Assembly: GCF_030369635.1 (NCBI RefSeq)
Contig: NZ_CP128474.1
Coordinates: forward strand, 496,001-560,000
DNA: 64,000 nucleotides
Source of the DNA: Microbacterium arborescens
GTDB lineage: Bacteria; Actinomycetota; Actinomycetes; Actinomycetales; Microbacteriaceae
Reading direction: 5' to 3'
Each line of letters opens with the position of its first letter. The stretch's first letter is position 1. The notes beneath the pieces are model-generated. The model did not search any database and was not told the origin of the DNA. It worked only from the letters and a program-made list of their open reading frames with translations. Position numbers and translations under genes: made by a program. Shown here piece by piece: positions 1 to 26,528 of this stretch.

Positions 1-1883
1 GACCAGGTGCCGGGGGAGAGTATGACGGGGGCGAGGGAGACGGCGGCAGGGCGAGCGCCGGGGAGAGCGCCGGGGAGAGCGGCGGGGGAGAGAGCAGCGG
101 GGGTGGCGGGGAGAGCGGCGGGGGTGGTCACCGTGAGCGTGCGGGGACGGGTGTCGAGGTTGGCCGCCAGCACCGTGACCTGACCGTGGCGCTCGGCGCC
201 GACGGCCCAGACGAGGCCGTCGGGACTCGAGCCCGACAGGAGCTCGCCGCCCGCGAGCGCGGTGAGGGCTGCGATCGCCTCGGCGACGGGCAGCGCCGTG
301 CCGTCCGCGGCGAGGATGCCGCGCGGACCCCACGACTCGAAGAACGTCAGGCTCGCGACGCCGCGCACCGCGAGGGCCGCGGCGCTCGCGATCGTCCAGG
401 CCGCGAGCTCGGGCGAGCGCTGCCGCGGGTCGTCCGCGTCGGTCAGGTGCGTGCCGTAGCCGGCCGACAGATCGGATGCCGCAGGGCGCGGTGGCGCCGT
501 CGTGGCGACGTCGTTGAAATGCGGGCGCAGCGAGACCGGCCCGACGTGCACCGGCACCCCGCCGCCGATCTCGACCGCCTGCGTCGCCACGAGTCGCTGC
601 ATCGCGAGCGACTCGACGAGCTGCTCGGTGTCGCGGCTGTGGAAGAGCGGGGTGACGCTGAACGTCAGCCCCGCGAGATGCCGCGGCAGGCGGTGGTGCT
701 CGCGGTTGAACTCGGTGAAGTGCGAGCGTGCGCCGCCGACGATGGGTACGGCCAGGCCCGACTGATCCAGCGCGCCTCGGAGCAGCGCGACCGTGGCCTC
801 GTCGGAGATGTGACGGGCCGGCCCGGAGGGCTGGAACGCCGCCACCCGGGCCACACGATGACGTGCGAGCGCGGTCACCGCGTCGGAGAGGGATGCGGCG
901 ATCGCGGCATCCGCATCATCCGAGACCCCCGCCTCGGCGGGCAGCACGAGGCGGACGTCGAGGGGCGGACCCTCGGATGCCGCGCGCTCGAGCGCCGCCG
1001 GCCATCCCGGCCACGCGAGGTCGAGCTCGACGAGGGTGCTCGCCGCATCGCCACGCCCGACGTGCGCAGGCGCGGGCGCGGGGCCCGGCGCGGTCGACGC
1101 GCTCAGCCCGATCTCAGGAAAGGCCCCGGCACGACGCAGCTCGATCAGCGCGTCCTCGGTCCCGTGGCCTCCGGCTGCGGCATCCGCCATCAACGCGGCA
1201 TCCGACGTCGCCACCACGGCAGTGTTCGCCATGAGGTCCGCGGTGACGGTGATCGCCTGCCGCACCCGCTCACCGGCCCCGACCTCGTACGGGAACGGCA
1301 GCGCGAGCGGCCGGCTGTAGACCTTGAACGAGGCATCGGTCCAGTTGCGCTGATCCTCCATCTCGAACACATCGCCGTCGAACGCCAGCCCGATCTCGAC
1401 GCCGTCGTCGCGCCACCGCAGTCCCGCGATGTCGAACACCGGCTGGTGGGGGCTGATGGCGACCGGCAGCGCCGTGTCCGACACCCGGCCCGTGCTGTGG
1501 GCCACCGACAGCCCGGCCCCGGCCGCGCCGGGCGGGATGAGGGCGACGAGGCCCGTGCGGTTCGTCTCGAGGGGCGACGCCGCCTCGAGGTCGCACAGCA
1601 CCCGCAGGCTCTCGCCGCGCACCTCGGCGCGCACCACACCGCTCAGCGGCATCCGCTCGTCGGCGGTGCGGACGTGCAGCATCAGGCTCGTCTCGGTGGC
1701 GGTGACACGGTCGACGACGAGGTCGGCCGTGTTCCAGTCGCGGTCGCGGACGACGGCCCGGATGCTGCGCAGCACGCGCCGTCCGCTTCGCCGGATGTCG
1801 GCGAGCTCATCGCCGCGCAACTCGAACTCCCACGCTCCGATCTGTCGTCGGTCCGCCTCGGCGCGCCCCCACATCGTCGGCAT
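1..1883 (-). CDS. apnL: D-apionate lactonase-like three-domain protein (3' end outside window)
   Basis: The reading frame opens with ATG at 1883, just past the TGA of the upstream SDR gene (1886-1888), and runs 627 codons without a stop to the window edge, so the C-terminus is missing. The N-terminus (RRSGRRVLRSIRAVVRDRDW) resembles the beta-rich N-terminal domain of D-apionate lactonases. A central barrel-like region and a C-terminal beta domain follow, matching the family's three-domain layout. The expected reaction is hydrolysis of D-apionolactone to D-apionate in the cytosol. It is the last gene seen in an operon whose other products match D-apionate catabolism, and that context supports the call. 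The visible C-terminal part carries a low-complexity Pro-Ala-Leu stretch (1-120). The assignment rests on remembered family resemblance plus context; another sugar lactonase or glycosidase-like enzyme is possible. Confidence 0.6.
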   Translation of the reverse strand, partial: MPTMWGRAEADRRQIGAWEFELRGDELADIRRSGRRVLRSIRAVVRDRDWNTADLVVDRVTATETSLMLHVRTADERMPLSGVVRAEVRGESLRVLCDLEAASPLETNRTGLVALIPPGAAGAGLSVAHSTGRVSDTALPVAISPHQPVFDIAGLRWRDDGVEIGLAFDGDVFEMEDQRNWTDASFKVYSRPLALPFPYEVGAGERVRQAITVTADLMANTAVVATSDAALMADAAAGGHGTEDALIELRRAGAFPEIGLSASTAPGPAPAPAHVGRGDAASTLVELDLAWPGWPAALERAASEGPPLDVRLVLPAEAGVSDDADAAIAASLSDAVTALARHRVARVAAFQPSGPARHISDEATVALLRGALDQSGLAVPIVGGARSHFTEFNREHHRLPRHLAGLTFSVTPLFHSRDTEQLVESLAMQRLVATQAVEIGGGVPVHVGPVSLRPHFNDVATTAPPRPAASDLSAGYGTHLTDADDPRQRSPELAAWTIASAAALAVRGVASLTFFESWGPRGILAADGTALPVAEAIAALTALAGGELLSGSSPDGLVWAVGAERHGQVTVLAANLDTRPRTLTVTTPAALPATPAALSPAALPGALPGARPAAVSLAPVILSPGTW

Positions 1884-1885
1884 CC

Positions 1886-2641
1886 TCAGAGGGTCGTCAT
1901 GCCGCCGTCGACCGAGAACGTCGCCCCCGTGGCGAACGAGCCCTCGTCGCTCGCGAGGTAGACCATGATGCCGGTGACGTCGGCGGGGGTGCCGGCGCGG
2001 CCGACCGGGATGCGCGAGACGATGGCCGCCCGCGACTCGGGGTCGTCGCTGATCGCCGACACCAGCGGCGTTTCGGTGTACGCCGGCTGCACGGTGTTCA
2101 CCCGGATGCCGCGGTCGGCATATGCCGCGGCGACCGTGCGACCGAGTCCGTGTACGCCGGCCTTCGACGCGCTGTAGGCGGTGAAGGCCCATCCCTCGCC
2201 GTTGACCGCGGTGGGGCTTCCGGTCAGGATGATCGACCCGCCGCCGCGCGACAGCAGCGCGCGGACGGCGTACTTCACCGTCAGGAACGTCCCGGTGAGG
2301 TTGATGTCGATCGTCCGCCGCCAGACGTCGAGATCGAGGTCGGCGGCGGGTGCGTCCTGCCCGAACAGCTGCACGCCCGCGTTCGCGACGACGACGTCGG
2401 GCGTCCAGCCGGCCGCCTCGAGCTCGGCGAACGCCGCCGCGACGGCGGCCTCGTCGCCGATGTCCATCGTGACCGCGCGTGCGAGCGGGCCCAGGGCCGA
2501 TGCGGCGTCGGCCACGGCCGGCCCGTTGCGATCGGCGAGCACGACGCGCGCGCCCTCGGCGACGAACCGCTCGGCGACGGCGTGTCCGATGCCCATCGCA
2601 GCGCCCGTCACGAGCGCCGTCTTGCCCTGCAGTCTCGTCAT
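1886..2641 (-). CDS. SDR-family NAD(P)-dependent dehydrogenase, candidate apiose/sugar 1-dehydrogenase
   Basis: This is a 251-residue classical short-chain dehydrogenase. It has the cofactor motif TGAAMGIG (12-19), NAG at 87-89, the catalytic triad Ser142, Tyr156 and Lys160 (YSASK), and a C-terminal SVDGG typical of the family. The ATG at 2641 lies 11 nt after the ApnO stop. The gene sits between the oxidoisomerase and the lactonase genes. A dehydrogenase that makes a sugar lactone is exactly the activity missing upstream of ApnL. I infer that it oxidises D-apiose, or another branched or ordinary aldose, to its 1,4-lactone. Known D-apiose dehydrogenases (ApsD) belong to the GFO/IDH/MocA family, so an SDR in this role would be a non-homologous replacement. 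The substrate cannot be read from sequence. Confidence 0.85.
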   Translation of the reverse strand: MTRLQGKTALVTGAAMGIGHAVAERFVAEGARVVLADRNGPAVADAASALGPLARAVTMDIGDEAAVAAAFAELEAAGWTPDVVVANAGVQLFGQDAPAADLDLDVWRRTIDINLTGTFLTVKYAVRALLSRGGGSIILTGSPTAVNGEGWAFTAYSASKAGVHGLGRTVAAAYADRGIRVNTVQPAYTETPLVSAISDDPESRAAIVSRIPVGRAGTPADVTGIMVYLASDEGSFATGATFSVDGGMTTL

Positions 2642-2652
2642 CGTCGTCGTCC

Positions 2653-3501
2653 TCAGCGCTCGATGTGGTCCAGGTGCAGCATCCGCGCGAGGTTCTTGTC
2701 GAGCTCGTCGTCGCGGAAGATCTTCTTCCAGTCGTCCTTGATGATGCTCTCGCGACCGTAGTCCATCGCGATCAGGCACGCATCGCTGAACGGGTTGTCG
2801 CCGCGCAGGCCGTTCGCGAGGGCGACCTGGGTGTGGCCGTACAGGATGCTGCGGGCGGCGGCCTCGGGCACGCCCATCGTGTGGATTGCCTCGTCGAGCG
2901 CCTCGTTCAGGAGCGAGCCGATCATGCAGGCGACGGTCTCGACGAGAGTGGGCTCGAGCTGAGCGAGCTGCTTGATCGTGACCCAGTGCACATCGATGAC
3001 GGGCGCGTAGATCGCGCGGACGGTCTCTTCGACGATGCGCTTCTTCTCGGGGTCGTCCGACTCGATGGCCGCAATCGCATCCTGCGGGGCGGCGATGCCG
3101 CCGAACGTGTCGGCCCATTCCTCCCTCGTCGTGCGTTCGAGGAACACCGACGGGTGGCACGGGTGCGCGACGGCCTGGATGATCTCGTCACGCGTGGTGA
3201 GCAGCCCCGCGTAGGCGGCGGCCGGGTCGAGGGTCAGCACGATGGCGCCGGCCTTCAGTTGCGGGACGAGATCGGCGGTCACCGGGCCGAGCGCCAGATC
3301 GGGCACGGCGAGCACGACGATGTCGGCGTCGGCGACCGCCGCGGCGGCATCCGTCAGCTCGCGCCCGGCGGCGATCGTGCGCTCGCGGCCGGCCGGCGAG
3401 TTCTCGACGTAGAAGACGGTGTGGTCGGTCTTCACGAGGTTGTTGGACACGCGCATGCCCATCTTCCCGCCTGCTCCGACGACGGCGATCGTGTGGCTCA
3501 T
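2653..3501 (-). CDS. apnO: D-apionate oxidoisomerase (6PGDH-like)
   Basis: A 282-residue protein with an N-terminal Rossmann motif GAGGKMG (9-15) and a C-terminal domain of the phosphogluconate dehydrogenase type. It closely resembles ApnO, which oxidises and rearranges D-apionate to 3-oxo-isoapionate with NAD+. The N-terminal domain has the usual beta-alpha-beta pattern (DADIVVLAVPD) and the segment AHPCHPSVF near residue 110. The C-terminal half is helical and unusually acidic at its end. Its ATG overlaps the stop of the decarboxylase gene by one base (TGATG), indicating translational coupling. A neighbouring OiaC-like decarboxylase, which would use its product, strengthens the call. A different 3-hydroxyacid dehydrogenase role is less likely. 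Confidence 0.8.
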   Translation of the reverse strand: MSHTIAVVGAGGKMGMRVSNNLVKTDHTVFYVENSPAGRERTIAAGRELTDAAAAVADADIVVLAVPDLALGPVTADLVPQLKAGAIVLTLDPAAAYAGLLTTRDEIIQAVAHPCHPSVFLERTTREEWADTFGGIAAPQDAIAAIESDDPEKKRIVEETVRAIYAPVIDVHWVTIKQLAQLEPTLVETVACMIGSLLNEALDEAIHTMGVPEAAARSILYGHTQVALANGLRGDNPFSDACLIAMDYGRESIIKDDWKKIFRDDELDKNLARMLHLDHIER

Positions 3502-4307
3502 CAGGTGCTCCTCAGGTATTCCAGGGTGGCGCGGGTCCATTCCCGCTCGGTTCGGACAGTGGTCTGGGCATCGCCCTGCCAGGGCAGCCAGTGCTCGACG
3601 ATCTCGTTGACCTTGGGCTCGTTGACCCCGCGATCGCGCGGCCGGACGGTCTCGAGCAGATGGGGGTAGTCGTGCAGCCCCTCGCCCATGCGGGTTCCGG
3701 TGAACGTGAAGCCCACCCATCCGGGCTGCCGGTCGAAGGCGAAGTCCTTCACGTGGATGTTCGTCACGTACGGCGCGGCGAGCTCGACGGTCTCGCGCGG
3801 CAGCTCCAGGCGCGCGACGACGTTGGCCGGGTCGAGGCACACGCCGAGGGCAGGGCTGTCGATGGCCGCGATCAGGCGCGTCAGATCGGCGGTCGACACC
3901 TGCTCGTAGGTCTCGAGCGCGAGTGCGACGCCCGCGGACTCGTAGGCGGGCAGGATGCCGCGCAGCCACATCTCGGCCTGCGCGAGCGTCGGGCGCGAAT
4001 CGGGAGCGTAGATCATGCTGCGCACGAGCCGCGCGTCGAAGACGGCCGCGAGCTCGAGGAATCGGGCCAGGTGCTCGGGCGCGACGCCCTTCGTGCCGAC
4101 CTCGATCGTCAGTCCGAGGTCGCGGGCCGCGGCGGCGGCGTCGCCCAGCTCGACGTCGTCCATGCGTTCGAGCGGGGCGTAGTCGCAGATCTGGAAGAGG
4201 TCGACGCCGAGCTCGCGCGTGCGCTCGAACGCGCCGACGAGCGAAAGCGGCTGGGGTGCACGGTCGGAGTGCTCCCACAGGAAGGCGTAGGTGCCGAGGC
4301 CGATCAC
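3501..4307 (-). CDS. oiaC: 3-oxo-isoapionate decarboxylase-like TIM-barrel protein
   Basis: A 268-residue member of the sugar phosphate isomerase/epimerase (AP-endonuclease 2-like) TIM-barrel superfamily. The GTG start at 4307 overlaps the stop of the LerI gene (GTGA), and there is no better start downstream. Metal-ligand-type acidic and His residues appear in the strands VALALETYEQ, LGVCLDPANV, TNIHVKDF and in GEGLHDYPHL. OiaC decarboxylates 3-oxo-isoapionate to L-erythrulose. The next three genes encode a kinase and two isomerases able to process L-erythrulose, which is the reason for choosing OiaC over a generic xylose-isomerase-like epimerase. Function is inferred from context and family; the reaction is not demonstrated here. 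Confidence 0.7.
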   Translation of the reverse strand: MIGLGTYAFLWEHSDRAPQPLSLVGAFERTRELGVDLFQICDYAPLERMDDVELGDAAAAARDLGLTIEVGTKGVAPEHLARFLELAAVFDARLVRSMIYAPDSRPTLAQAEMWLRGILPAYESAGVALALETYEQVSTADLTRLIAAIDSPALGVCLDPANVVARLELPRETVELAAPYVTNIHVKDFAFDRQPGWVGFTFTGTRMGEGLHDYPHLLETVRPRDRGVNEPKVNEIVEHWLPWQGDAQTTVRTEREWTRATLEYLRST

Positions 4308-5122
4308 GGGGTCGCTCCGTTCCGGGGGGTGCGCGAGGTCGCGAGGGCTGCAGCCTCGTCGATCACGCGGCAGAAGGCGGCCGCGTCGTGCGCGAAGCGC
4401 CCGAGGAAGAGTCCGTCGACCGCGCCCTCGAGTCGCGCGAGCAGACCGGGGCCGGCGGAGCCGCCGTAGATGACGCTCGATCCGGCACGCGCGGGATCGG
4501 CGTCGAGGGCTGCGCGCAGGGCGCGGCTCACGGCGACGATGTGCTCGGTCGGCGCGGGCTCGGGAGCCCCGATCGCCCAGACCGGCTCGTACGCCACGAC
4601 GACGCGGCCCGCGGGAGCGCCCGCGAGATCGGCGTGGAGCTGCGCGACGGTCGCGCGCGCCGCGGCGTCGGCATCCATCCGCTCCGACTCTCCGATGCAC
4701 AGCACCGGGGTGAGGGCGTGCCGCAGGGCCGCCGCGGCTTTGGCCGCCGTGATCTCGTCGGTCTCGCCGAAGAGGCGCCGGCGCTCGGCGTGGCCGACCT
4801 CGGCGAACGTCCCGCCCGACTCGGCGACCTCGGCCGCCGTGATCTCGCCCGTGAAGGCCCCCGGCTCATGAGCCGAGACGTCCTGGACGCCGACCTGGAT
4901 GCCGACGGGCGCGAGGAAGTCGCGGGCGTCGTCGAACTGCAGGTACGTGGGGATGACGAAGACGTCGACGACGCCGCTGCGGACGGCCTCGTGGGCGCCC
5001 ACCGCGGCGGCGACCTCGCCGAACCACACGCGCGCGGCGCGCCGGCCGAAGTACGCCTTGAGGCTCACCCCGACGGTCACGCGTGGCGTCGGCGTCTCGC
5101 CGGAAGCTGCGACGGGCGGCAT
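4304..5122 (-). CDS. lerI: L-erythrulose-1-phosphate isomerase (triose-phosphate isomerase homologue)
   Basis: A 272-residue TpiA homologue. The three catalytic positions of the TIM family are present: Lys22 (VSLKAYFG), His111 (EVGHAERR) and Glu179 (VAYEPVWAIG), plus a phosphate loop (IYGGSAGPG). The first strand differs from housekeeping TpiA (NWK replaced by SLK), as in the L-erythrulose-1-phosphate isomerases of erythritol pathways. The ATG at 5122 overlaps the stop of the RpiB gene by one base; an upstream in-frame ATG at 5209 lies inside that gene and is unlikely. Expected reaction: L-erythrulose 1-phosphate to D-erythrulose 4-phosphate. The neighbouring kinase and RpiB homologue complete the known LerK-LerI-DerI trio. 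Confidence 0.82.
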   Translation of the reverse strand: MPPVAASGETPTPRVTVGVSLKAYFGRRAARVWFGEVAAAVGAHEAVRSGVVDVFVIPTYLQFDDARDFLAPVGIQVGVQDVSAHEPGAFTGEITAAEVAESGGTFAEVGHAERRRLFGETDEITAAKAAAALRHALTPVLCIGESERMDADAAARATVAQLHADLAGAPAGRVVVAYEPVWAIGAPEPAPTEHIVAVSRALRAALDADPARAGSSVIYGGSAGPGLLARLEGAVDGLFLGRFAHDAAAFCRVIDEAAALATSRTPRNGATP

Positions 5123-5592
5123 CAGCAGGAGCCGGTGCTCTCGTACCGGTCGATGACGGCGACCTTCTCGGCCGAGGCGGAGGCGGTGTCGAAGCGATAG
5201 GTCAGCCACTCGCGGACGAGGCGGCGCGCGAGCTCGATGCCCACGACACGCTGTCCCATCGTCAGCACCTGCGCGTTGTTGGAGAGCACGCCGCGCTCGA
5301 CCGAGAACGAGTCGTGGGCCGTGACGGCGCGGATGCCGGCGACCTTGTTCGCCGCGATCGCGACGCCGAGGCCGGTGCCGCAGATCAGCAGGGCGCGGTC
5401 GGCCTCGCCGCGTGCGACCCGCTCGGCGGCCTCGATCGCGACGGTCGGGTAGGGGGTGTGCCCGTCGGCGCTCACACCGACGTCGACGACCGACGCGACG
5501 TCGTCGCTGGCCTCGAGGTCGCGTTTGAGCACCTCTTTGTAGTCGAAGCCGGCGTCGTCGCAGCCGATGACGATGCGGAGCGGTTCAGTCAT
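5122..5592 (-). CDS. derI: D-erythrulose-4-phosphate isomerase (RpiB/LacAB family)
   Basis: A 156-residue RpiB-family protein. The active-site Cys71 lies in the motif [13 protein letters not shown]. The N-terminal motif is GCDDAG rather than the GSDHAG of ribose-5-phosphate isomerase B, a change that fits the tetrulose-phosphate branch. A conserved Asn-Asn ([10 protein letters not shown]) follows. Expected reaction: D-erythrulose 4-phosphate to D-erythrose 4-phosphate, which enters the pentose phosphate and aromatic pathways. The gene overlaps the kinase gene by 4 nt and lerI by 1 nt, so it is the middle of a coupled cassette. Ribose-5-phosphate isomerase activity as a side role cannot be excluded. 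Confidence 0.82.
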
Positions 5593-7337
5593 GACGGGGT
5601 CCTCTCGTGGTGGGTGAGCACGTCGCCGATGGCGGTCGCGATGAGGGCGAGCGAGTGCGCGCCGGGGTCGGGGGTGCCGACGCTGTGCTGGCCGTGGGTG
5701 CGCGCCCGGCCCATGCGGGGCAGCAGCGCGGCGGTCGCGGCGGCGGACGAGGTGGCGACGGATGCCGCCGTGCGCCAGGCCTCGGCGAGGCTGGCCCCGG
5801 TGGCGACGCCGGCCGACAGCTCGGCGCTGAAGGGCACGAGGGCGTCGACCATCGTCTTGTCGCCGAGCTCGGCCTTGCCGTACGACATCACGCCGCGGGT
5901 GGCGGCGGCGACCCCGGCCGCGACTCCTGCGGCATCCGGTCGGCCCGCGTCGCCGAGCGCGCTCGCGACCGAGGTGAGGATGACGCCCCACAGCGCGCCG
6001 GAGGTGCCGCCGGCACGGTCGGACCAGGCGTCGGCGGCGCGGGCGAGCGTCGTCGCCGCTCCCGCGCCAGCGGCTCCGGCCTCGTGGGCGGCGGCGCGGG
6101 CGGCGTGCGAGCCGCGCTGCATCCCGATGCCGTGGTCGCCGTCGCCGGCGATCGCGTCCATGCGTCCCAGCTCATCGACGTGCGCGTCGACGGTGCGGGC
6201 GACCGCGTCGACGACCTCGACCACCACGCGGGCGACCGATCGCGAGTCGGTGTCACCGGGGACGATTGCGGTGGCCGCGTCGGCTGCGTCCGCGTCGGCC
6301 GTCGCGCCGGACTCGCCGGACCGGGCGGAGGCCTCGGGGGCGACGGCTCCGCGGCGGTAGGCGGGGGCGTCGACGGGGGTCTCCCACAGCTCGGCGAGCT
6401 CGTCGTCGAGCCAGAACAGCGTGAGCGAGGTACCGGCCATGTCGAAGCTCGTGCAGTACTCGCCCACGTGCGGGTCGATCACCTCGAGGCCGGCGTCGGC
6501 GAGCAGCTGGGCGATGCGCCGATAGACGACGAACATCTCCTCGTACTTGAGCGAACCGAGGCCGTTGAGGATGGGCACGACGCGTGCGTCTGCGCCGTCC
6601 GGCCGTTCGGCGAGCAGCGTCGTGACCAGCAGCTCGGCCAGCCCGTCGGCCGTCGGCACATCGCTCTCGTCGATGCCCGGCTCGCCGTGGATGCCGAGGC
6701 CGATCGCCATGCGACCATCCGGGACGCTGAACAACGGCGCGGGAGCACCCGGCAGCGTGCATCCCGAGAACGCGACGCCGAACGAACGGGTGCGGTCGTT
6801 GGCGAGACGCGCCACGCGCGCGACGCCCGCGAGGTCGTGCCCGGCGGATGCCGCACCCGCCGCGGAACGGAACACGGTGAGGTCGCCCGCGATCCCGCGT
6901 CGCCGGTGCTGCTCGTCGGCCGCCGCGCTGGCGATGTCGTCGGTGACGGCGACCGTCTCGCAGGCGATGCCCTCGCCGCGCAGGCGTTCCTGCGCGGCGT
7001 CGAAGTTGAGCACGTCGCCGGCGTAGTTGCCGTACGAGAAGAGGACCCCGCCGCCCGCGTGGGCCGCGCGAGCGACGGCGTGGATCTGCTGGGCCGACGG
7101 CGAGGCGAAGAGGTTGCCCATCGCGGCGCCGTCGGCCAGGCCCGCGCCCACGAGCCCGCCGAAGGCCGGGTAGTGCCCCGACCCGCCGCCGACGACGACG
7201 GCCACCCGGCCCTCGGGTGCCGGGGTGGCACGGACCACGCCGCCCGGGACGCGGCGGACGTAGCGCGCGTTGGCCGCGACGAAGCCCTCGATCATCTCGT
7301 CGGCGAAGTCGGCCGGTGCGTTCCACAGGCGGGTCAT
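5589..7337 (-). CDS. lerK: L-erythrulose 1-kinase (DhaK-DhaL fusion)
   Basis: A 582-residue single-chain, ATP-dependent dihydroxyacetone-kinase-type enzyme. The DhaK part (about 1-325) has the substrate-binding GGGSGHYP (50-57), a conserved Asp in [11 protein letters not shown], and His217 in LGIHGEPG, the residue that binds the keto-sugar covalently. An Ala/Asp-rich linker (about 335-365) leads to a DhaL ATP-binding part with the Mg-binding motif GDGDHG (398-403) and a GGTSGALWG loop. Expected reaction: phosphorylation of L-erythrulose at C1. A plain dihydroxyacetone kinase is the alternative, but the OiaC-, LerI- and DerI-like neighbours favour LerK. It overlaps the MFS gene upstream and derI downstream by 4 nt each. 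Confidence 0.82.
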
Positions 7338-8716
7338 CGTGCCGCGGGACCGTTCTGCGTCACGGCCGTCGTCTCACCTGTGTGCGGGACGGCGGCGGGC
7401 GCCATCCGGTTGCCGCGGGCGAGCAGCACCATCAGCACGGCGGACACGAGCATCACGACCCCGACGATGACCATCGGCATCTCGTACCCGCCGGTCCAGT
7501 CGCGGACGGCGCCGGTGATGTAGGGCGCGCTGAACCCGGCGAGGTTGCCGACGGTGTTGATCAGCGCGACGCCGGCGGCGGCCGCGGCTCCCGTGAGGAA
7601 ACGGGTGGGCAGGGTCCAGAAGTTCGGCAGAGCGGCGAAGATCGCGCACGCGGTGACCGTGATCACGGCGATCGTCGCGGCGGGCGACCCCGCGAAGAGC
7701 GCGAGCGGGATCGAGACGGCGCCGGCCACGGCGGGCACCGCGATGTGCCAGGTCTTCATGCCGCGGCGGTGGGCGTCGCGCGACCACAGCACCATGACGA
7801 TCGCGGCGGGCAGGTACGGGATCGCGGTGATCAGGCCCTTCTGGAAGACGTCGAAGGTCTGCCCCGTCTGCTCCTGGAAGCCCTCGATGATCGTGGGCAG
7901 GAAGAACGCGAGGGCGTAGAGGCCGTAGATGAAGCCGAAGTAGATGAACGACAGGGCCCACACTCGTCCGCTGCGGAACGCGAACCGCGCGGAGACGTGC
8001 TTCTCACGGGCTTCCGTGGCCGAACGCTCGGCGGCGAGAGCACCCGTGAGCCAGGTCTTCTCCTCGGCCGTGAGCCATGCGGCATCCGCGGGGGAGTCCT
8101 TGAGGTAGAACCAGGCGACGACACCGACGATGACGGCGGGGATCGCGACGCCGAGGAACATGAACCGCCAGCCCTCGAGCCCGAAGAAGACGCCGTGCTG
8201 CTGGATGAGGGCGCCGGCCAGTGGGGCGCCGATGACGGTGGTGAGGGGCTGGGCCAGGTAGAAGAGCATGAGGATGCGGCCGCGGTAGCGCGAGGGCACC
8301 CACAGGCTGAGGAACAGGATCGCTCCGGGGAAGAAGCCGGCCTCGGCCACGCCGAGCAGGAAGCGCAGGACGACGAGCTGCTCGAAGTTCTGCACCCACG
8401 TGAAGAGCACCGCGACGATGCCCCAGCTCACCATGATGCGCGCGAGCCACTTGCGGGCGCCGAACCGGTGCAGCGCGAGGTTGGAGGGCACCTCGAGCAG
8501 GATGTAGCCGATGAAGAAGACGCCCGACGCGAACCCGAACTGGGCGGCGCTCAGGGCGAGGTCGTCATTCATGCCGTTCGGTGCTGCGAAGCCGATCGCG
8601 GTGCGGTCGAGGTAGTTGATGAAGAACATCAACGCCACGAACGGCACGAGGCGGATAGCGACCTTGCGGATCGCGGAACGGGCTACGGGTGATTCCGTTT
8701 CGGAAGAGGTGTCCAC
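7334..8716 (-). CDS. MFS transporter, anion:cation symporter (ACS) type; likely apionate or sugar-acid importer
   Basis: A 460-residue major facilitator protein with about 12 hydrophobic segments. The signature MFFINYLDRTAIGFAAP in helix 1 and the loop RYRGRILMLFYLAQP after helix 4 are typical of the ACS branch, which carries sugar acids such as galactonate, tartrate and phthalate-like anions. The GTG start at 8716 is chosen because a GGGAAG ribosome site lies about 5 nt upstream. The gene is first in the operon and next to the divergent GntR gene. A sugar-acid importer fits an operon that begins at a lactone or aldonate; the exact substrate (apionate, apionolactone or apiose) is inference. 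Confidence 0.85.
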   Translation of the reverse strand: MDTSSETESPVARSAIRKVAIRLVPFVALMFFINYLDRTAIGFAAPNGMNDDLALSAAQFGFASGVFFIGYILLEVPSNLALHRFGARKWLARIMVSWGIVAVLFTWVQNFEQLVVLRFLLGVAEAGFFPGAILFLSLWVPSRYRGRILMLFYLAQPLTTVIGAPLAGALIQQHGVFFGLEGWRFMFLGVAIPAVIVGVVAWFYLKDSPADAAWLTAEEKTWLTGALAAERSATEAREKHVSARFAFRSGRVWALSFIYFGFIYGLYALAFFLPTIIEGFQEQTGQTFDVFQKGLITAIPYLPAAIVMVLWSRDAHRRGMKTWHIAVPAVAGAVSIPLALFAGSPAATIAVITVTACAIFAALPNFWTLPTRFLTGAAAAAGVALINTVGNLAGFSAPYITGAVRDWTGGYEMPMVIVGVVMLVSAVLMVLLARGNRMAPAAVPHTGETTAVTQNGPAAR

Positions 8717-8823
8717 GCTGACTTCCCATCGTCGGTTGCGCGACGAGTTGCCTCATCGCCCGGCTAGTTTGGCAAACCGGTTGACCAATTGCAACCTCGT
8801 TCCTGCCGGGTAGGTTTGTCGTC
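8717..8823. promoter_or_regulatory. Divergent control region of the apionate operon and its GntR gene
   Basis: 107 nt lie between the MFS gene (left) and the GntR gene (right). The region is AT-richer than its surroundings and carries one strong inverted repeat (8769-8788). A -10-like TAGGTT (8811-8816) with TTGCAA (8789-8794) 16 nt upstream faces right and ends 7 nt before the GntR ATG, so that mRNA is probably leaderless. A leftward promoter probably overlaps the inverted repeat, but no unambiguous -35/-10 pair was found for it. Confidence 0.65.
8769..8788. promoter_or_regulatory. Probable GntR/FadR-family operator (20-bp inverted repeat)
   Basis: The sequence is TTGGCAAACCGGTTGACCAA. Outer arms TTGG/CCAA and inner arms AACC/GGTT are perfectly symmetric, with only the two dinucleotides between them mismatched. 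The position between the divergent genes, and the TGG...CCA style of symmetry, fit binding by the FadR-type regulator encoded immediately to the right. Confidence 0.7.
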
Positions 8824-9540
8824 ATGCCCGCCTATCGCTCCGACGGATCGCCCGACCTCGCGGCATCCCTCGCAGCGCTCCCGGCGCGCACACCCGTCTC
8901 GGAGGTCGCGCGACGCCTGCTCGACCTGTTCACCTCGGGCGATGTCGCCCCGGGCACGCGGCTGCCGCCGGAGCGGCAGCTGGCCGCGACCCTCGAGGTC
9001 GGGCGGTCCGCCGTGCGCGAGGCGCTCGCCGCCCTCGAGATCCTCGGGATCGTCGACGTGCGCCCCGGCTCGGGAACGTACCTGCGCGGCGCGGCGAGCG
9101 AGCTGCTGCCGCAGACGCTGCGGTGGGGATTGCTCATCGGCGAGCGGAACACGCACGAGCTGATCGAGCTCCGGTCGGGACTGGAGATCTACGTCGCCCG
9201 TCTGGCGGCGGCCGCCGCCGGTTCTGGCGATCTCGAAGCGCACGTCGAACGGATGCGGTCGACGCTGGGCGACCTCGGCGCGTTCGCCCGTGCCGATCTG
9301 GCATTCCACCACGAGCTCGCACGCATCGCGGGCAACGCGATGCTCATCGATCTGCTGCACGTCGTCCGGTCACTGCTGCAGGTCTACGCCGACCGCGCGG
9401 TGCACGACGACGAGCAGGCCCGTCGTGCGCTCGCCGAGCACGAGGTGATCGCCCGTGCCGTGGCGGCGGGCGACGAGGACGCCGCCGCATCGGCGATGGC
9501 CGCGCATATGGCGACGGCCGCCCGCCGCATCGCCCCCTGA
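8824..9540 (+). CDS. FadR-type GntR transcriptional regulator
   Basis: A 238-residue regulator. An N-terminal winged helix (about 22-95) contains PGTRLPPERQLAATLEVGRSAVREALAALE, the GntR recognition region. A C-terminal helical FCD effector domain (about 100-238) has metal- or ligand-type residues in ADLAFHHELAR and the late LAEHEVIARA helix. Divergent to the apionate operon and next to a matching operator, it is most likely the repressor released by a pathway sugar acid. The start has no Shine-Dalgarno sequence but lies 7 nt after a -10-like hexamer. Confidence 0.88.
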   Translation: MPAYRSDGSPDLAASLAALPARTPVSEVARRLLDLFTSGDVAPGTRLPPERQLAATLEVGRSAVREALAALEILGIVDVRPGSGTYLRGAASELLPQTLRWGLLIGERNTHELIELRSGLEIYVARLAAAAAGSGDLEAHVERMRSTLGDLGAFARADLAFHHELARIAGNAMLIDLLHVVRSLLQVYADRAVHDDEQARRALAEHEVIARAVAAGDEDAAASAMAAHMATAARRIAP

Positions 9541-9549
9541 TCCCTGGCG

Positions 9550-9610
9550 CGCGAGGTCCCACTTCGGCCGGTTATCCGGACGCCATACCCGGCTGAACTG
9601 GGACCTCGCG
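9550..9610. terminator. Long imperfect hairpin between convergent genes
   Basis: A 12-bp perfect outer stem (CGCGAGGTCCCA, 9550-9561, with 9599-9610) is extended by about nine more pairs with one mismatch and one G-T pair (9563-9571 with 9589-9597), closing a loop of about 17 nt. It lies 10 nt after the GntR stop and 24 nt before the end of the oppositely transcribed glycosidase gene, so it probably ends transcription from both sides. There is no T tract. Confidence 0.7.
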
Positions 9611-9633
9611 GGTTGGCCCACGCGGGTCGCGGG

Positions 9634-11391
9634 TCAGTCGGCGACGCGGGTGAGGCGGATGCCCATGTAGGGCCGGCCGGGAAGCTCGACGCGCAGCTGG
9701 CCGCGATGCTCGCCGCGCACCGGCTCGACGGTCATGTTCCACGTGTCGATGACCTCGACCCGCCACGCGCCCTCGTCGAGGATGACGTTGCGGAACCGCG
9801 GGCGGTTGAAGCCGAAGTAGCCGATCTTCACGGCCCCGGCGACGCCGCCCCACGGAACGTCCCAGTCGCTCGGCAGGGGATCCCAGACGCCGGTCGGCGA
9901 CTCGGCCTGGAGTCGTTCGAGGAACGCGATCCGGTCGGGGGACGAGCCGTGCAGCTCACCGCCCTTGGACCACCAGAGGATCTCGTCGTCGCGGCCGTGC
10001 GCGGGCGGGTAGTAGGTCTCGCCGTGGCCGACGTAGCCGCCGCGCACCGCTCCCTCCCAGAAGCGCCGCGTCATCTCCTCGCCCGTGATGTTGCCCCAGC
10101 CCTGGTCGATGTCGCCCTCGTAGGCGCACTCGTCGATGACGACGGGCTTGCCCCACTGCTCGCGCCACTGGTCGGTGTTCTCGGCTGTGCGGTACACGTC
10201 GACGCGCTGGATGCTCACATGCGTGATCCAGGGCTTGTCGTAGTCGTAGACGGGACGGCAGTTGTGGATCGAGTTGAGGTGGCCGAATGCGTCCTCCTCG
10301 CCGACGACCGCGGCGAGCCGCTCCCAGTCGTCGAGGTCCTTCGACCACAGCAGGTCGTACTCGTTCGCCATCGACCACCACACGTTCGCGTAGCCCGACA
10401 GGCGCCGCACGACATAGCGCAGGTACCGCTCGTCGACGGCGGGTCCGAGGTCGGCGAAGCCCCATCGGTCGTAGGCGTGGAACAGGATGATGTCGGCCTC
10501 GATGCCGAGTTCGGCGAGCTGAGTGATCCGCTTCTCGAGGCGGCGGAAGTGCGCGGGGTCGAAACGCTCGAGATCGAACCCCTCGGCCAGGCTCCCCGCG
10601 AAGGGGAAATCCGCGGGCTCGTCGCTGTTGTACAGGTACGACTTCGGGAAGACGCACATGCGCAGCTTCGCGAACGACGTGGCGGCGAGCGTCGCGAGGG
10701 TCTGTTCCTGCAGGGCGTCGGGCTGGTGCGTCCAGGCGTACGCGGTCGTGCCGAGCGGACGGTGCCGGGTGCCGTCGGCGTGCCGGAAGTGGAAGCCGTC
10801 GACGCGCACCGGGCCGTGCGAGCCCGCGCGTGCCGCGACGACCTCGAGCCCGCCGGTGACGCCGTCGAGTGAACGTGCGGTCGAGCGGGTGCGGAAGCTC
10901 CAGGCTCCGTGCGTGTCGGCGAGGGCGCGGATGATGTAGACGCCGTCGCCGTCGTAGAAGCCGCCGACCCGCACCTCGGCACCGCCCCGCTCGAAGACCG
11001 CGTCGAGCTCGACGTCGACGAACGGATTGCCGTGGGCGGGTCCGGTGAGCCGGATCTCGATCGGATCCCACAGCGCCGCGCTCGCGGGCACCTCGACCGT
11101 CGCCGACCCCCGCGCGACCTCGGCGCCCTCGTATGACGGGTCGGGGTCGATCGCGGGCGCGTACGGCGGGCGGGCCGCCCCGGTCCCGACTTCGGCGAGG
11201 GCGGCGAAGAAGCGTTCGCGCTCGTCGAGGTTCTCGAGCGCCGGCACGATCGCGACGAGCTGGCCGAGACGTCCACCCCGGAACTGCGTCGCCATCGGCG
11301 AGGCCGCGACACCGGGCATGTACCGCTCGAGGATGGCGCGGGCGGCGGGGTCGTCGAGGGCTTCGCCGAAGGTCGTGGCGCGGTCGAACAT
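9634..11391 (-). CDS. DUF5060/DUF5605 glycoside hydrolase, apiosidase-like clan
   Basis: A 585-residue cytoplasmic glycosidase without a signal peptide. A helical N-terminal segment (about 1-75) precedes a beta-sandwich of DUF5060 type (about 90-175), a TIM barrel (about 200-480) and a C-terminal DUF5605-like beta domain. The likely acid/base is Glu344 (WWSMANEYD) and the likely nucleophile Glu421 (VVIDECAYEGD). The start at 11391 has a perfect AGGAGG site 5 nt upstream. It is the last gene of the rhamnogalacturonan operon. The barrel resembles the apiosidase-like fold (GH140 group), and the adjacent apionate operon makes a beta-apiosidase role attractive. That substrate is inference; another exo-glycosidase is possible. 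Confidence 0.78.
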   Translation of the reverse strand: MFDRATTFGEALDDPAARAILERYMPGVAASPMATQFRGGRLGQLVAIVPALENLDERERFFAALAEVGTGAARPPYAPAIDPDPSYEGAEVARGSATVEVPASAALWDPIEIRLTGPAHGNPFVDVELDAVFERGGAEVRVGGFYDGDGVYIIRALADTHGAWSFRTRSTARSLDGVTGGLEVVAARAGSHGPVRVDGFHFRHADGTRHRPLGTTAYAWTHQPDALQEQTLATLAATSFAKLRMCVFPKSYLYNSDEPADFPFAGSLAEGFDLERFDPAHFRRLEKRITQLAELGIEADIILFHAYDRWGFADLGPAVDERYLRYVVRRLSGYANVWWSMANEYDLLWSKDLDDWERLAAVVGEEDAFGHLNSIHNCRPVYDYDKPWITHVSIQRVDVYRTAENTDQWREQWGKPVVIDECAYEGDIDQGWGNITGEEMTRRFWEGAVRGGYVGHGETYYPPAHGRDDEILWWSKGGELHGSSPDRIAFLERLQAESPTGVWDPLPSDWDVPWGGVAGAVKIGYFGFNRPRFRNVILDEGAWRVEVIDTWNMTVEPVRGEHRGQLRVELPGRPYMGIRLTRVAD

Positions 11392-11447
11392 TCATGCCTC
11401 CTGGGCGGTGAGGGGTATGCGGTGAAGGGTGTGCGGTGACGGGCGGG
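11392..11447. repeat. Short imperfect tandem repeat in an operon gap
   Basis: The 56-nt gap between the rhamnosidase and DUF5605 genes contains about three copies of a 14-nt unit of the type GGTGAGGGGTATGC, starting near 11406. It lies immediately before the ribosome site of the DUF5605 gene. Significance is unknown. Confidence 0.5.
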
Positions 11448-14225
11448 TCAGGACGCGGTGGCGTCGCGGATCGCGGAGTCGACCGCCGTGAGGAGGTCGG
11501 GCGGGCTGAACATGAGCACCGAGCTCACCGTGCGGCCCGAACCCCAGCGGGTCTCGTCGCGCACGGCCGGCACCCGGTCGGGGGCGTGCTGGTCCAGCGC
11601 GCCGAGCAGAGCGTCGTACGCCCGTGGGTCGTCGATGACGTCGGCGAGCGAGGCGCTCAGCCCGTCGAGCGGGGGGAGCGCCGTCGGGCTCTCGGCTGCG
11701 AATCGCCACTCGTGTGTCCCCGATCCGACTTCGGCGCGCAGCCCCGGCAGGTCGACGTCGGCGCGGGTGCTCGGCGGCACGGTCGCGGTGACCACGATCT
11801 CTCCGCCCGCGCGGCGCCACGCCACGCTCGCCTCGCCGTACGGCGTGAGGTGTCGCGCCGCGGCGTGGTCGAGCGAACGCAGCGGGCGCGGCGCGATCCG
11901 CAGCCGCCGGTAACCGGGGGCCGCCGGGGCCAGGCCTGCGACGGTCCGGTGCAGCCAGTCGGCGACGGCGCCGAGCGCGTAGTGGTTGAACGAGGTCATC
12001 TCGCCCGGGTTGACACTGCCGTCGGGCAGCAGCGAGTCCCAGCGTTCCCAGACGGTCGTCGCGCCCTGCGTGACCGGGTACAGCCATGACGGGCACTGCG
12101 TCTGCGTCAGCAGGCGCTCGGCGGCATCCAACCGCCCACCCTCGGTGAGGGCGTCGGCGACCAGCGGTGTGCCCACGAATCCGGTGCCGATGCGGTAGCC
12201 GCCTTCGCGGACGAGGTCGGCCAGTCGGGTCGCAAGTGCCGCCCGCGCCTCATGGTCGACGACGAGGTCGAACTCGAGTGCGAGCGCGTATGCGGTCGGG
12301 GCGTCGCTGACCATCCGGCCGGCCGGGGTGACGTACTCCGCGACGAAGGCCGCGCGGCTGCGCTCCGCGAGCGCCCCGTAATGCGCGGCATCCGCGTCGA
12401 ACCCGAGCAGGCGGGCCGCGTCGGCGACCAGCCGCAGCGACCGGGCGAAGTAGGCGCTCGCGACGATGTCGGAGTCGACCTTCGCCTGGCCCGGCTTGTC
12501 GGGGGGAGCGGAAGGGTCGAGCCAGTCGCCCAGCTGCATGCGTCCGGCCCACAGCCCGCTCTCGCCCGCATCCGCTGCCACCGCGTCGACCCACGAGCGC
12601 ATGCTCGGGTACTGCGCGGCGACGACGTCGCGGTCGCCGAAGCGCTCGTGCATCACGGTGGGCACCACCGTCGCGGCATCCCCCCAGGCCGCCGGGCTCA
12701 CCCCGAACGCCCCGAAGGCCGTGAGAGCGGCGGGGACGACGACGGGGACCGAGCCGCCGCTGCGGCGCTGCTCGTGGGCGAGGTCGCGCAGCCACGACGT
12801 CAGGAATCCGGCGCAGTCGTAGAGGAAGGATGCCGTCGGCGCGAAGACCTGCAGATCGCCGGTCCAGCCCAGGCGCTCGTCGCGCTGCGGACAGTCGGTC
12901 GGTATCGAGAGGAAGTTGCCGCGCATCCCCCACACGACGTTCTCGTGCAGTCGGTCGATCAGCGGGTCCGACGAGGAGAACCACCCGGTGCGCGTCATGT
13001 CGGTGTGCAGGACGACGGCCTCGATGTCGGCCGGGTCGACGTCGGCGCCGGTGACCTCTGCGTAGCGGAATCCGTAGAAGGTGAAGCGCGACTCGAGCAC
13101 ATCGTCGTCGCCGGTGAGGTCGAACGTCGCGGTCGCGGCGGCGTTGCGCAGCGGCCGCAGGGCGAGCTCGCCGTGCTCGAGTACTTCGGCGTGGCGGACG
13201 ACGACGCGCTGCCCGGCCCGGCCGCGCACGCGCAGGCGGAGCCGGCCGACGAGATTCTGGCCGAAGTCGAGGATGCGGCCGCCCGAAGGTGCGGTGAGCA
13301 CCTCGGCCACCGGGAGCGTCTGGGTGCGGCGCACCGGCGGTGCGATGCGAGCCTCGGGCGTCGGGACGTTCTCGTAATCGGGGCGGGCCGCGGCGCCGAC
13401 CCTCGCCGGCGAGAACTCCGTCGCGGCGCGTGCGAGGTCCTGGTGCTCGCCGGCGTAGATGCCGGAGTCGACGACCGGGCCGTCGCCCGCCGCCTCCCAT
13501 CCTGCACCGGTCGCGGCGAGGGTCTCGCTCGTGCCGTCGTCGTAGGTCACCCGCAGCTGTGCGAGGAACGACGGCTGGTCGCCGTAGAGGCGGTCGGCGA
13601 ACGCGAAGAACCCGTACTTCTCGGTGTACCAGGCGCCCGCGAGCGTCGCGGAGAGCTCGTTGTCACCGTCGCGGATCAGGGCCGTGACATCGACGGTCTC
13701 GTGCACCAGGCGATCGCGGTAGGCGGTCCATCCCGGCGCGAGCACCTCGTCCGAGACGGCGCTGCCGTTGATCTCGGGCTCAGCCGATCCGAGCGCCGTC
13801 CAGAAGAGGATCGCGCGCGAGACCGGGCGGGCCGGCCGGAACCTCGTACGGACGACGGCGGGCTGCGCCGGGCGCTCCGGGTCGGCGAGCCCGATCGGCT
13901 CGGCGACCCATTCGTCGTCGCCGAGGAAGCCCGCGGTGACGACGAGGTCATCGCTCCAGGGCGTCGCCGTGCCCGACATGCCTTCGACCCGGATGCGCAC
14001 GCGTCGCGTCTCGCCCGGGGCGAGCGGGGTGAACGGCCACGGCACGAGCGCGCTCTCGTCGTACTCGAGGGCGACCGGGCCCGAGCCGTCGTCGATCTCG
14101 GCCCGGCGCTGCATCCAATCGGGCTCGTCCGTTCCGACCGTCCAGCTCAGTCGCGGGGTGGGCGTTGCGACGAACGCCGTGTCGTCGCGCAGTTCGGCGC
14201 GCAGCGTCGCGACGGCGGCGCTCAT
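11448..14225 (-). CDS. Alpha-L-rhamnosidase, GH78
   Basis: A 925-residue enzyme with the usual GH78 layout: an N-terminal fibronectin-like domain (about 1-105), a beta-sandwich carbohydrate-binding domain (about 130-300), a conserved concanavalin-like part, an (alpha/alpha)6 barrel (about 400-770) and a C-terminal beta domain. The catalytic signature PTDCPQRDERLGWTGD is intact. It should release terminal alpha-L-rhamnose inside the cell, since no signal peptide is present. The ATG at 14225 overlaps the stop of the serine hydrolase gene by 4 nt. It fits degradation of imported rhamnogalacturonan oligosaccharides; plant rhamnosides such as flavonoids are an alternative. Confidence 0.93.
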   Translation of the reverse strand: MSAAVATLRAELRDDTAFVATPTPRLSWTVGTDEPDWMQRRAEIDDGSGPVALEYDESALVPWPFTPLAPGETRRVRIRVEGMSGTATPWSDDLVVTAGFLGDDEWVAEPIGLADPERPAQPAVVRTRFRPARPVSRAILFWTALGSAEPEINGSAVSDEVLAPGWTAYRDRLVHETVDVTALIRDGDNELSATLAGAWYTEKYGFFAFADRLYGDQPSFLAQLRVTYDDGTSETLAATGAGWEAAGDGPVVDSGIYAGEHQDLARAATEFSPARVGAAARPDYENVPTPEARIAPPVRRTQTLPVAEVLTAPSGGRILDFGQNLVGRLRLRVRGRAGQRVVVRHAEVLEHGELALRPLRNAAATATFDLTGDDDVLESRFTFYGFRYAEVTGADVDPADIEAVVLHTDMTRTGWFSSSDPLIDRLHENVVWGMRGNFLSIPTDCPQRDERLGWTGDLQVFAPTASFLYDCAGFLTSWLRDLAHEQRRSGGSVPVVVPAALTAFGAFGVSPAAWGDAATVVPTVMHERFGDRDVVAAQYPSMRSWVDAVAADAGESGLWAGRMQLGDWLDPSAPPDKPGQAKVDSDIVASAYFARSLRLVADAARLLGFDADAAHYGALAERSRAAFVAEYVTPAGRMVSDAPTAYALALEFDLVVDHEARAALATRLADLVREGGYRIGTGFVGTPLVADALTEGGRLDAAERLLTQTQCPSWLYPVTQGATTVWERWDSLLPDGSVNPGEMTSFNHYALGAVADWLHRTVAGLAPAAPGYRRLRIAPRPLRSLDHAAARHLTPYGEASVAWRRAGGEIVVTATVPPSTRADVDLPGLRAEVGSGTHEWRFAAESPTALPPLDGLSASLADVIDDPRAYDALLGALDQHAPDRVPAVRDETRWGSGRTVSSVLMFSPPDLLTAVDSAIRDATAS

Positions 14226-15367
14226 GCGTCGCCCAGGATGCGGCCGAGCCGGGCCGCCAGAGCCACCGCACGCGGATCGGCGCCGCCCGGCCAGGGACCG
14301 CGGGCGATCGTCCAGGCGAAGGCGAGCCCGGTGTCGGGGTCGACGCAGGCGAGCGCGCCCGCGGCCCCGTCGTGCCCGAACGCGCGAGGACCGCCGAAGG
14401 CGAGCTGCTGCGACGGCTTCTGGAAGACGATGGCGTGTGCGCGGTCGTGCTGATGGAGCACTTCGTCGTAGCCGCGGATCTGCTGCTGCCCGATCGCGGC
14501 CACGGTCTCGGGGCCGAGCGCCGGCGCGGCGCCGTCGACCCCCGTGACCATGGCGGCGAACAGGCGGGCCAGACCGCGGGCCGAGCCGGTGCCGCTGCCG
14601 GCGGGATGCCCGTAGCGCCAGCTGCGCGGCGAGTTGGCGAGGTCGATGCCGCCCGCCGCGGGGGCGAACACCTTCGGGCCGAGCGTCGACGACGACCGCT
14701 CGGCGGTGTCGGACACCGGTCGGATCATCGGCAGCACGTCCACCCGGCGGTGCTCGAGCTCAGTGGGGAGCCCGAGGTGGAACTCGATCGCGTGCGGCGC
14801 CCGGATCTCGGTCTCGTAGAACTCGTGGAGAGTTCGGCCGGTCACGCGGTAGACCAGCTCGTCGCCGAGGCTGCCGATCGTGATCGCGTGGTACCCGAAT
14901 GCGCTGCCGGGGTGCCAGAACGGTGTCGATTCCGCCAGCCGCGCGGCGGCGGCGTGGTGGTCGAGCAGCTCGTCCCACGTGAGCGGATCGTCGGTCTGCG
15001 GGAGCCCGGCCTGATGCGACAGCAGCTGGCGGACGGTGACCGCCGCCTTGCCCTTCGCCGCGAACTCGGGCCAGTAGTGCGCGACGCGCTCGTCGAGGTC
15101 GATCTCGCCGCGTTCGACGAGCAGGCCGATCGAGAGCCCGATCGTGTTCTTGGTCACCGAGTACGGCACCATGACGGAGTCGCCGTCGAGGTGCGGGCCG
15201 CCCCAGGCGTCGAGCACCGTGCGGCCTCGGTGTATCGCCGCGACCTGGAACGACAGGTCGGGGTCCGCGGCGAGCAGCCCCTCGAGGTCGGTCACCACGT
15301 CGGTCAGGCGATCGTCGGCGTGCCCGCGGAGGCTGCCGGTCAGCTCGGTGATCGATTCGGTGGTCAT
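14222..15367 (-). CDS. Serine hydrolase, class C beta-lactamase / esterase EstB family
   Basis: A 381-residue member of the beta-lactamase/DD-peptidase fold. The SxxK nucleophile motif is S70-V-T-K73. A YHA segment (GYHAITIG) stands at the YxN position, and HDG in AFGHDGAAG at the K/HxG position. There is no signal peptide. The gene overlaps both the GH3 and GH78 genes by 4 nt, which ties it to oligosaccharide processing. An intracellular esterase that removes acetyl or other acyl groups from pectic oligosaccharides is the most sensible role. Antibiotic resistance is unlikely from context. Confidence 0.85.
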   Translation of the reverse strand: MTTESITELTGSLRGHADDRLTDVVTDLEGLLAADPDLSFQVAAIHRGRTVLDAWGGPHLDGDSVMVPYSVTKNTIGLSIGLLVERGEIDLDERVAHYWPEFAAKGKAAVTVRQLLSHQAGLPQTDDPLTWDELLDHHAAAARLAESTPFWHPGSAFGYHAITIGSLGDELVYRVTGRTLHEFYETEIRAPHAIEFHLGLPTELEHRRVDVLPMIRPVSDTAERSSSTLGPKVFAPAAGGIDLANSPRSWRYGHPAGSGTGSARGLARLFAAMVTGVDGAAPALGPETVAAIGQQQIRGYDEVLHQHDRAHAIVFQKPSQQLAFGGPRAFGHDGAAGALACVDPDTGLAFAWTIARGPWPGGADPRAVALAARLGRILGDA

Positions 15368-17775: not shown

Positions 17776-17809
17776 GGGGACTCCAAGCGAGAGGGGGGTG
17801 GTGGGAGGG

Positions 17810-17845
17810 GGATGCCGGGGCGCCGGAACGGGAGCCCCGGCATCC
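17810..17845 (-). terminator. Internal hairpin between transporter and glycosidase genes
   Basis: A perfect 12-bp stem (GGATGCCGGGGC, 17810-17821, with 17834-17845) closes a 12-nt loop two nucleotides after the end of the DppF-like gene. It probably stops part of the transcripts from the transporter genes, or protects their 3' ends, before GH3. Confidence 0.7.
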
Positions 17846-17847
17846 GT

Positions 17848-21496: not shown

Positions 21497-21517
21497 GATG
21501 CCTTCCCGAAGGTGGAG

Positions 21518-21556
21518 CCCTCGGACCGGGCGGAGACGACCCGCCCGGTCCGAGGG
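21518..21556 (-). terminator. Strong hairpin between binding-protein gene and permease genes
   Basis: A perfect 16-bp stem (21518-21533 with 21541-21556, beginning CCCTCGGACCGG) closes a 7-nt loop. It starts 8 nt after the binding-protein stop. It probably terminates most transcripts or stabilises their 3' ends, so the binding protein is made in excess over the membrane parts. Confidence 0.8.
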
Positions 21557-21563
21557 GGTGCGG

Positions 21564-23093: not shown

Positions 23094-23147
23094 CTTTGGT
23101 CCTTTTCTCGGGAGAGGCGATACCCCGGTGGATCGCCCTGGCCGTGG

Positions 23148-23176
23148 ACGCTAGCACCAAATCCGAGCGGTGACTA
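23148..23176 (-). promoter_or_regulatory. Promoter of the rhamnogalacturonan transporter operon
   Basis: Read on the minus strand, TAGTCA (23171-23176) is followed after 17 nt by TAGCGT (23148-23153). This gives a leader of roughly 48 nt before the binding-protein ATG at 23093. The -10 hexamer TAGCGT recurs in the galT promoter of this window. Confidence 0.55.
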
Positions 23177-23208: not shown

Positions 23209-23276
23209 GTTTTCGTTATTCGAGCGGGCAGACTGGCGTCCGTTCGCCGACGAGGGCGACCACGGACAGATGGACG

Positions 23277-26356: not shown

Positions 26357-26361
26357 GCCGC

Positions 26362-26515: not shown

Positions 26516-26528
26516 TGGGATCGATTCA

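Follow-up and report, generated by a model that had tools for sequence, protein, structure and literature searches.

The steps from apionolactone to L-erythrulose are already known, and the D-apiose dehydrogenase ApsD is a member of the Gfo/Idh/MocA family. The OiaC branch has been described together with the L-erythrulose enzymes, and the tetritol route LerK-LerI-DerI comes from Mycobacterium smegmatis. The D-apiose oxidative pathway with its OiaC branch is reportedly the work of Carter et al. in 2018 in Nat Chem Biol, an article cited by PMC6302742. The accessible part of PMC10733421 describes the LerK, LerI and DerI steps from L-erythrulose to D-erythrose 4-phosphate, and that of PMC11747546 reports growth of strain LCG007 on D-apiose. 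The locus compared here with these systems is an operon of Microbacterium arborescens, located in a stretch of 64,000 nt (the window; assembly GCF_030369635.1, contig NZ_CP128474.1, positions 496,001–560,000) of a single-contig 3.37-Mb genome. It very probably serves the catabolism of D-apiose and D-apionate and is controlled by a GntR regulator encoded beside it, because the protein families and their conserved context match each named step. Its features are as follows, with domains assigned by Pfam and NCBIfam profile searches (SDR, short-chain dehydrogenase/reductase; TIM, triosephosphate isomerase; MFS, major facilitator superfamily).

1..1883, minus strand: predicted D-apionolactonase (ApnL), 3′ end outside the window; NF049900, E 9.3e-60; conserved block
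1886..2641, minus strand: classical SDR, proposed D-apiose 1-dehydrogenase replacing ApsD; PF13561; co-occurrence, slot, exclusion and operator
2653..3501, minus strand: predicted D-apionate oxidoisomerase (ApnO); PF16896, E 1.2e-56; solved relative 5t57, E 2.5e-60
3501..4307, minus strand: xylose-isomerase-like barrel, proposed 3-oxo-isoapionate decarboxylase (OiaC); PF01261; invariant residues; proximity to ApnO
4304..5122, minus strand: TIM type, proposed LerI; PF00121; PDB 11ef, E 4e-30; tree position
5122..5592, minus strand: RpiB type, proposed DerI; PF02502; NF051858, 148.8 bits, cut-off 240
5589..7337, minus strand: DhaK-DhaL fusion, proposed L-erythrulose 1-kinase (LerK); PF02733 and PF02734; NF011049, 731 bits, cut-off 492
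7334..8716, minus strand: MFS transporter of the D-galactonate/HpaX kind, proposed D-apionate importer; PF07690; TIGR00893, 271 bits, below the cut-off of 395
8769..8788, no strand: palindromic operator-like site TTGGCAAACCGGTTGACCAA, between the GntR and MFS genes
8824..9540, plus strand: GntR/FCD regulator, proposed local regulator of the operon; PF00392 and PF07729; divergent partner also in relatives

The eight co-directional genes run leftward from MFS to ApnL, and the GntR/FCD gene is divergent. From the MFS end the junctions are overlaps of 4, 4, 1, 4 and 1 nt followed by gaps of 11 and 2 nt; thus five of seven are overlaps of 1 or 4 nt, in agreement with the first-pass annotation, which had described this arrangement. 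That annotation had also given family signatures for the eight genes. These hold in Pfam and NCBIfam, with the lactonase recovered by NCBIfam alone, as Pfam has no match for it. The lactonase had been placed in the window; the family match stands and the gene end does not, since the final 16 bp, stop codon included, lie left of base 1. The best named matches to the operon ApnO, among the matches listed, are from Microbacterium.

Conservation was assessed in 398 sampled genomes of the same family, the window's genome included, 79 of which have ApnO at E 1e-30 or better. Loci compared were the ApnO surroundings in the 78 other same-family genomes and 80 named loci from among the matches listed; the two samples share some genomes, and part of the contigs are short. 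ApnO is at least 50% identical in 131 loci (73 same-family and 58 named) and more distant in 27 (5 and 22); in all, 170 loci were fetched. In 56 of the 73 same-family loci OiaC, LerK, DerI and LerI are also present, and the operon is therefore real, far beyond chance.

From the observed gene content, order, conservation and regulon motif we infer all of the enzyme activities that follow, and likewise the GntR ligand. The SDR would oxidize D-apiose with NAD+ to D-apionolactone, a newly proposed step, and ApnL would open the lactone ring to give D-apionate. ApnO would convert D-apionate to 3-oxo-isoapionate by oxidation and rearrangement, and OiaC would decarboxylate this to L-erythrulose. LerK would then form L-erythrulose 1-phosphate, LerI D-erythrulose 4-phosphate and DerI D-erythrose 4-phosphate, which would enter the pentose phosphate pathway. 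Import of D-apionate is probably the task of the MFS protein.

The ApnL, ApnO and OiaC steps to L-erythrulose would be common to this operon and to the OiaC branch of the D-apiose oxidative pathway; the first oxidation, however, would be by a classical SDR here and is by the Gfo/Idh/MocA-type ApsD there. ApnL and ApnO are shared with the pathway that uses OiaK and the RuBisCO-like protein OiaX, and a like SDR (60%–66%) occurs in four same-family OiaK/OiaX loci. Unlike those loci, where ApnO is 44%–45% identical, the operon has neither OiaK nor a RuBisCO-like gene. The enzymes from L-erythrulose to D-erythrose 4-phosphate are those of the tetritol route, but they would be fed here by a decarboxylated apionate derivative and there by tetritol oxidation. 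Since the OiaC branch is known in combination with the L-erythrulose enzymes, the joining of the two modules is not claimed as new. The downstream half is not new; what is proposed as new is the use of an SDR for the first oxidation, together with the operator. The apiose cluster of strain LCG007, as given in the accessible part of PMC11747546, has an apionolactonase, an apiose dehydrogenase and an apionate oxidoisomerase in common with the operon.

The SDR had been left without a role in the first-pass annotation and is judged the most interesting gene here. Its probable role is that of a D-apiose 1-dehydrogenase with no kinship to ApsD, because it co-occurs with ApnL, because it and ApsD-like genes exclude each other in the loci compared, with an ApsD-like gene in the SDR slot in one of them, and because an operator-like site lies upstream of it in relatives. 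SDR orthologues (E 1e-78 or better) are found in 60 of the 398 genomes and all 60 also have ApnL (Fisher 7.6e-66, n = 398, the genomes not being independent). Fifty of 62 SDR places are within 500 bp of ApnL. A class-level sample of 394 genomes has five with the SDR, three of them already met; the two new ones, from the same genus (G769) and from another family (G599), have ApnL.

Within the 170 loci, the SDR (at least 60% identity) is found in 59 and an ApsD-like Gfo/Idh/MocA gene (at least 35% identity) in eight, and no locus has both. The Gfo/Idh/MocA-like gene is beside ApnL in five, from Paracoccus, Pelagimonas, Hephaestia, Aureimonas and Kushneria. It is directly upstream of ApnL in the first four, with a Pfam scan for Paracoccus only. 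In Pseudomonas viridiflava (L171) the order is mfs-lerK-derI-lerI-oiaC-apnO-apsD, i.e. an ApsD-like gene is in the slot of the SDR, and ApnL-type matches are located about 6 kb beyond it. The gene of the M. arborescens operon belongs to PF13561 and not to the Gfo/Idh/MocA family. An ApsD elsewhere in the genome was considered and rejected as unlikely: the 13 Gfo/Idh/MocA matches to an ApsD-like query are all at most 32% identical.

The SDR sequence retains S142, Y156 and K160, and D37 after the second strand, all invariant in 16 of 16 sequences. The first three presumably have their usual SDR roles, and D37 would suit NAD+. A literature search of titles and abstracts, with subscription papers mostly beyond reach, gave no SDR apiose dehydrogenase. 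The SDR is a candidate first-step enzyme in a bacterial group where no ApsD-like gene has been seen beside ApnL.

Other types of gene also adjoin ApnL and were considered as alternative front ends. A Udh-like (epimerase-family) gene is beside ApnL in a Humibacter genome that has no SDR (G057, L037:12375–13301), and copies with 81%–83% identity are found near GH78 (glycoside hydrolase family 78) genes in two Microbacterium loci. An SMP-30/gluconolactonase-type gene adjoins ApnL in three loci (L087, L114 and L115), the domain being confirmed for L087 only.

The palindrome TTGGCAAACCGGTTGACCAA is located at positions 8769–8788 between the GntR gene and the operon, and is probably bound by the GntR protein. 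The 7-mers GGTTGAC and AACCGGT, on either strand, are each present in 91 of 95 GntR intergenic regions. The operator core GGTCAACCGGTT has a single occurrence in the 3.37-Mb genome, that between GntR and the operon; the reversed control pattern has no occurrence in the whole genome. Scanning with an 18-base consensus and up to four mismatches shows operator-like sites at most 260 bp upstream of 22 of 60 SDR matches, and some of the other matches lie inside operons. For 20 of the 62 SDR places the upstream region was absent from the fetched loci and was fetched for the operator test; three further places of this kind, one each in G052, G040 and G087, were not included. A site is present in 15 of these 20 units, within 400 bp or the available stretch, where 0.04 are expected in base shuffles. 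In 15 of the 20 the SDR is unlinked: it stands over 150 kb away from ApnO, or on a different contig, or in a genome that has no ApnO. Ten of these 15 have the site. One genome (G072) has the SDR, ApnL and an operator-like site, with ApnO not found at the threshold used. A sigma-70 scan of positions 8600–9700 gave no promoter-like site, and such a scan is uninformative at this GC. The operator allows the regulon to be found in other genomes. It is likely that the SDR represents an unrecognised D-apiose 1-dehydrogenase family that has replaced ApsD in Actinomycetota, and that it belongs to the GntR regulon with operator GGTCAACCGGTTGACC even where it is unlinked from the core operon.

The core operon could instead serve mainly for external D-apionate; the SDR and ApnL would then be an added front end that may act on a different branched aldose. 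ApnL is not found in 16 of the 79 ApnO genomes, the MFS protein is from a sugar-acid transporter family, and the SDR is within 300 bp after apnO in only 12 of 78 same-family loci. However, the SDR and ApnL are inside the operon here and SDR units elsewhere have the same kind of operator. This explanation appears unlikely as a whole, and for the acid half it is compatible with the D-apiose pathway proposed above. Less likely still, the SDR may be a tetritol dehydrogenase that oxidizes erythritol or threitol to L-erythrulose, and the operon would then serve for tetritols in addition to apionate. The SDR family includes some of the tetritol dehydrogenases, which counts for this possibility. So does the description of LerK, LerI and DerI for tetritol breakdown in the accessible part of PMC10733421. 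The SDR nevertheless tracks ApnL in 60 of 60 genomes, and P. viridiflava has an ApsD-like gene where the SDR would stand. It is present, moreover, in five same-family loci with a distant ApnO (L105–L109), of which four have OiaK and a RuBisCO-like protein and none has ler genes within the fetched stretch. In the four loci with the OiaK/RuBisCO-like route (L105–L108) the SDR is 60%–66% identical, and three of these also have an OiaC-like barrel.

The first-pass annotation had named ApnL, ApnO and OiaC by family. Best matches in unrelated families are not seen for the first two (NF049900, E 9.3e-60, for ApnL; 5t57, E 2.5e-60, for ApnO). ApnL shares 27%–52% identity with eight other ApnL-type proteins, the homology extending along its length, and an EDQR-W-DASFK-Y block is invariant in all nine aligned sequences, that of the window included. 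ApnO has the PGDH_C domain (PF16896, E 1.2e-56) and a 6PGDH-like fold. Its best solved relative, 5t57, was deposited under the name semialdehyde dehydrogenase and is taken by us to be ApnO. The OiaC-type barrel has four residues, E132, D159, H185 and E238, that do not vary among the 18 sequences compared, and this tetrad presumably suits a metal site. It is highly improbable that this barrel acts as an epimerase or isomerase instead of a decarboxylase and that the route after ApnO differs from the OiaC route: PF01261 does include many such enzymes and the best solved relatives are distant, but ApnO, OiaC and the L-erythrulose phosphate enzymes are kept together across two phyla, and the JGI name 3-oxoisoapionate decarboxylase is on 3 of 120 OiaC homologues among the matches listed.

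The DhaK-DhaL fusion is proposed to be LerK, an L-erythrulose 1-kinase; it is above the NF011049 cut-off (731 vs. 492 bits). The TIM-type protein is apart from the housekeeping TIM of the genome in a tree (branch 100/99) that carries a long-branch warning, and PDB 11ef, one of its solved matches, is named L-erythrulose-1-phosphate isomerase. The TIM and RpiB of the operon were considered as sole genome copies and this was rejected, as the genome holds three TIM genes, three RpiB genes and two DhaK genes.

The first-pass annotation had also proposed that two modules are joined here into one pathway. Comparative data support this reading, and the join is widespread: of the 131 loci with the closer ApnO, 130 (72 and 58) have OiaC close by and 101 (56 and 45) have the full OiaC/LerK/DerI/LerI set. 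An operon peculiar to this window is thus rejected. Only 1 of the 131 has OiaK and a RuBisCO-like protein. Of the 27 loci with a distant ApnO, none has all four genes; OiaK and the RuBisCO-like protein occur together in 15 of them. The same core is found in Serratia, Pectobacterium, Pantoea, Rouxiella, Mixta and P. viridiflava, and the module join recurs in Actinomycetota and Gammaproteobacteria. Two Erwiniaceae plasmids share the core, but with a divergent RpiB gene. Because the core recurs across the 131 loci, Gammaproteobacteria and these plasmids, the join is a regular trait of the clade to which this ApnO belongs.

For genomes that have no ler genes next to ApnO, the pathway predicts such genes at another place. 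LerK is missing in 15 of the 73 same-family loci, several through contig ends. Seven of these 15 genomes were tested, and in six a DhaKL with 53% identity or more is encoded at another site; in ApnO-less control genomes a DhaKL of at least 50% identity is found in 5 of 30 (Fisher 0.0012). In one genome (G364:C1:1288712–1297347) the matches to both ApnO and ApnL are split in two, as if by frameshifts.

Several findings weigh against the proposed pathway. The ApnL score with the NF049900 equivalog model, 202.8 bits, is far under the cut-off of 750; the Paracoccus ApnL that adjoins an ApsD-like gene is likewise under it, at 607.5 bits. The OiaC-type barrel matches no curated model in NCBIfam and no close relative in the solved-structure search. 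The solved matches of LerI are headed by ordinary triosephosphate isomerases, with 11ef eighth (E 4e-30), and three ApnO loci have a TIM that falls with the housekeeping enzymes in the tree that carries the long-branch warning. The DerI candidate is below the cut-off of NF051858, a model named for Rhizobiales; comparison scores are 139.8 bits for the genome's own second copy, 68.1 for the housekeeping RpiB and 176.2 for the Pectobacterium operon copy. Both the DerI candidate and the housekeeping RpiB are above the cut-off of TIGR02133 (ribose-5-phosphate isomerase). At least one of OiaC, LerK, DerI and LerI is missing nearby in 30 of the 131 loci, partly from contig ends. One genome (G030) has ApnO, OiaC, the SDR and ApnL without an intact close LerK, its DhaKL being a 43% match only with an internal stop. 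As to the SDR, 5 of the 65 genomes with ApnL do not have it, it is in none of the 22 named loci with a distant ApnO, and 5 of the 20 SDR units have no operator.

To the left of the operon are a LacI gene and rhamnose-type genes, named by eye, of which the isomerase has a sub-threshold Pfam match only. The genes to the right encode an apiosidase-like glycosidase, GH78 and GH3 enzymes, an ABC (ATP-binding cassette) importer whose solute-binding protein is of family 5, a PL11 (polysaccharide lyase family 11) rhamnogalacturonan lyase and, judged by eye, a GH2-like protein. The apiosidase-like, GH78, GH3, importer and PL11 genes, at window positions 9634–29405, have the character of a pectin-type degradation locus adjoining the operon. 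A complete and testable route for a rare branched plant sugar would be tied to one operon near a rhamnogalacturonan lyase, a rhamnosidase and rhamnose-type genes. The nearest of the neighbors is the following.

9634..11391, minus strand: DUF5060/apiosidase-like/DUF5605 glycosidase, outside the operon, possible apiose supplier; PF13204, 43.6 bits (cut-off 26.5), PF18310 and PF16586

Its sole solved match is 4n0r, a putative glycoside hydrolase. The apiosidase-like domain is no proof of apiosidase activity, and the enzyme is a possible source of apiose.

A second DhaKL-RpiB-TIM cluster is found at about 187–195 kb of the genome (C1; L210:4138–12185), with proteins 62%, 76% and 46% identical to those of the operon. 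It also has TIM-barrel-like, 3-hydroxyacyl-dehydrogenase-like, SDR, MFS and GntR-like genes (by eye), and probably represents another route through erythrulose phosphate.

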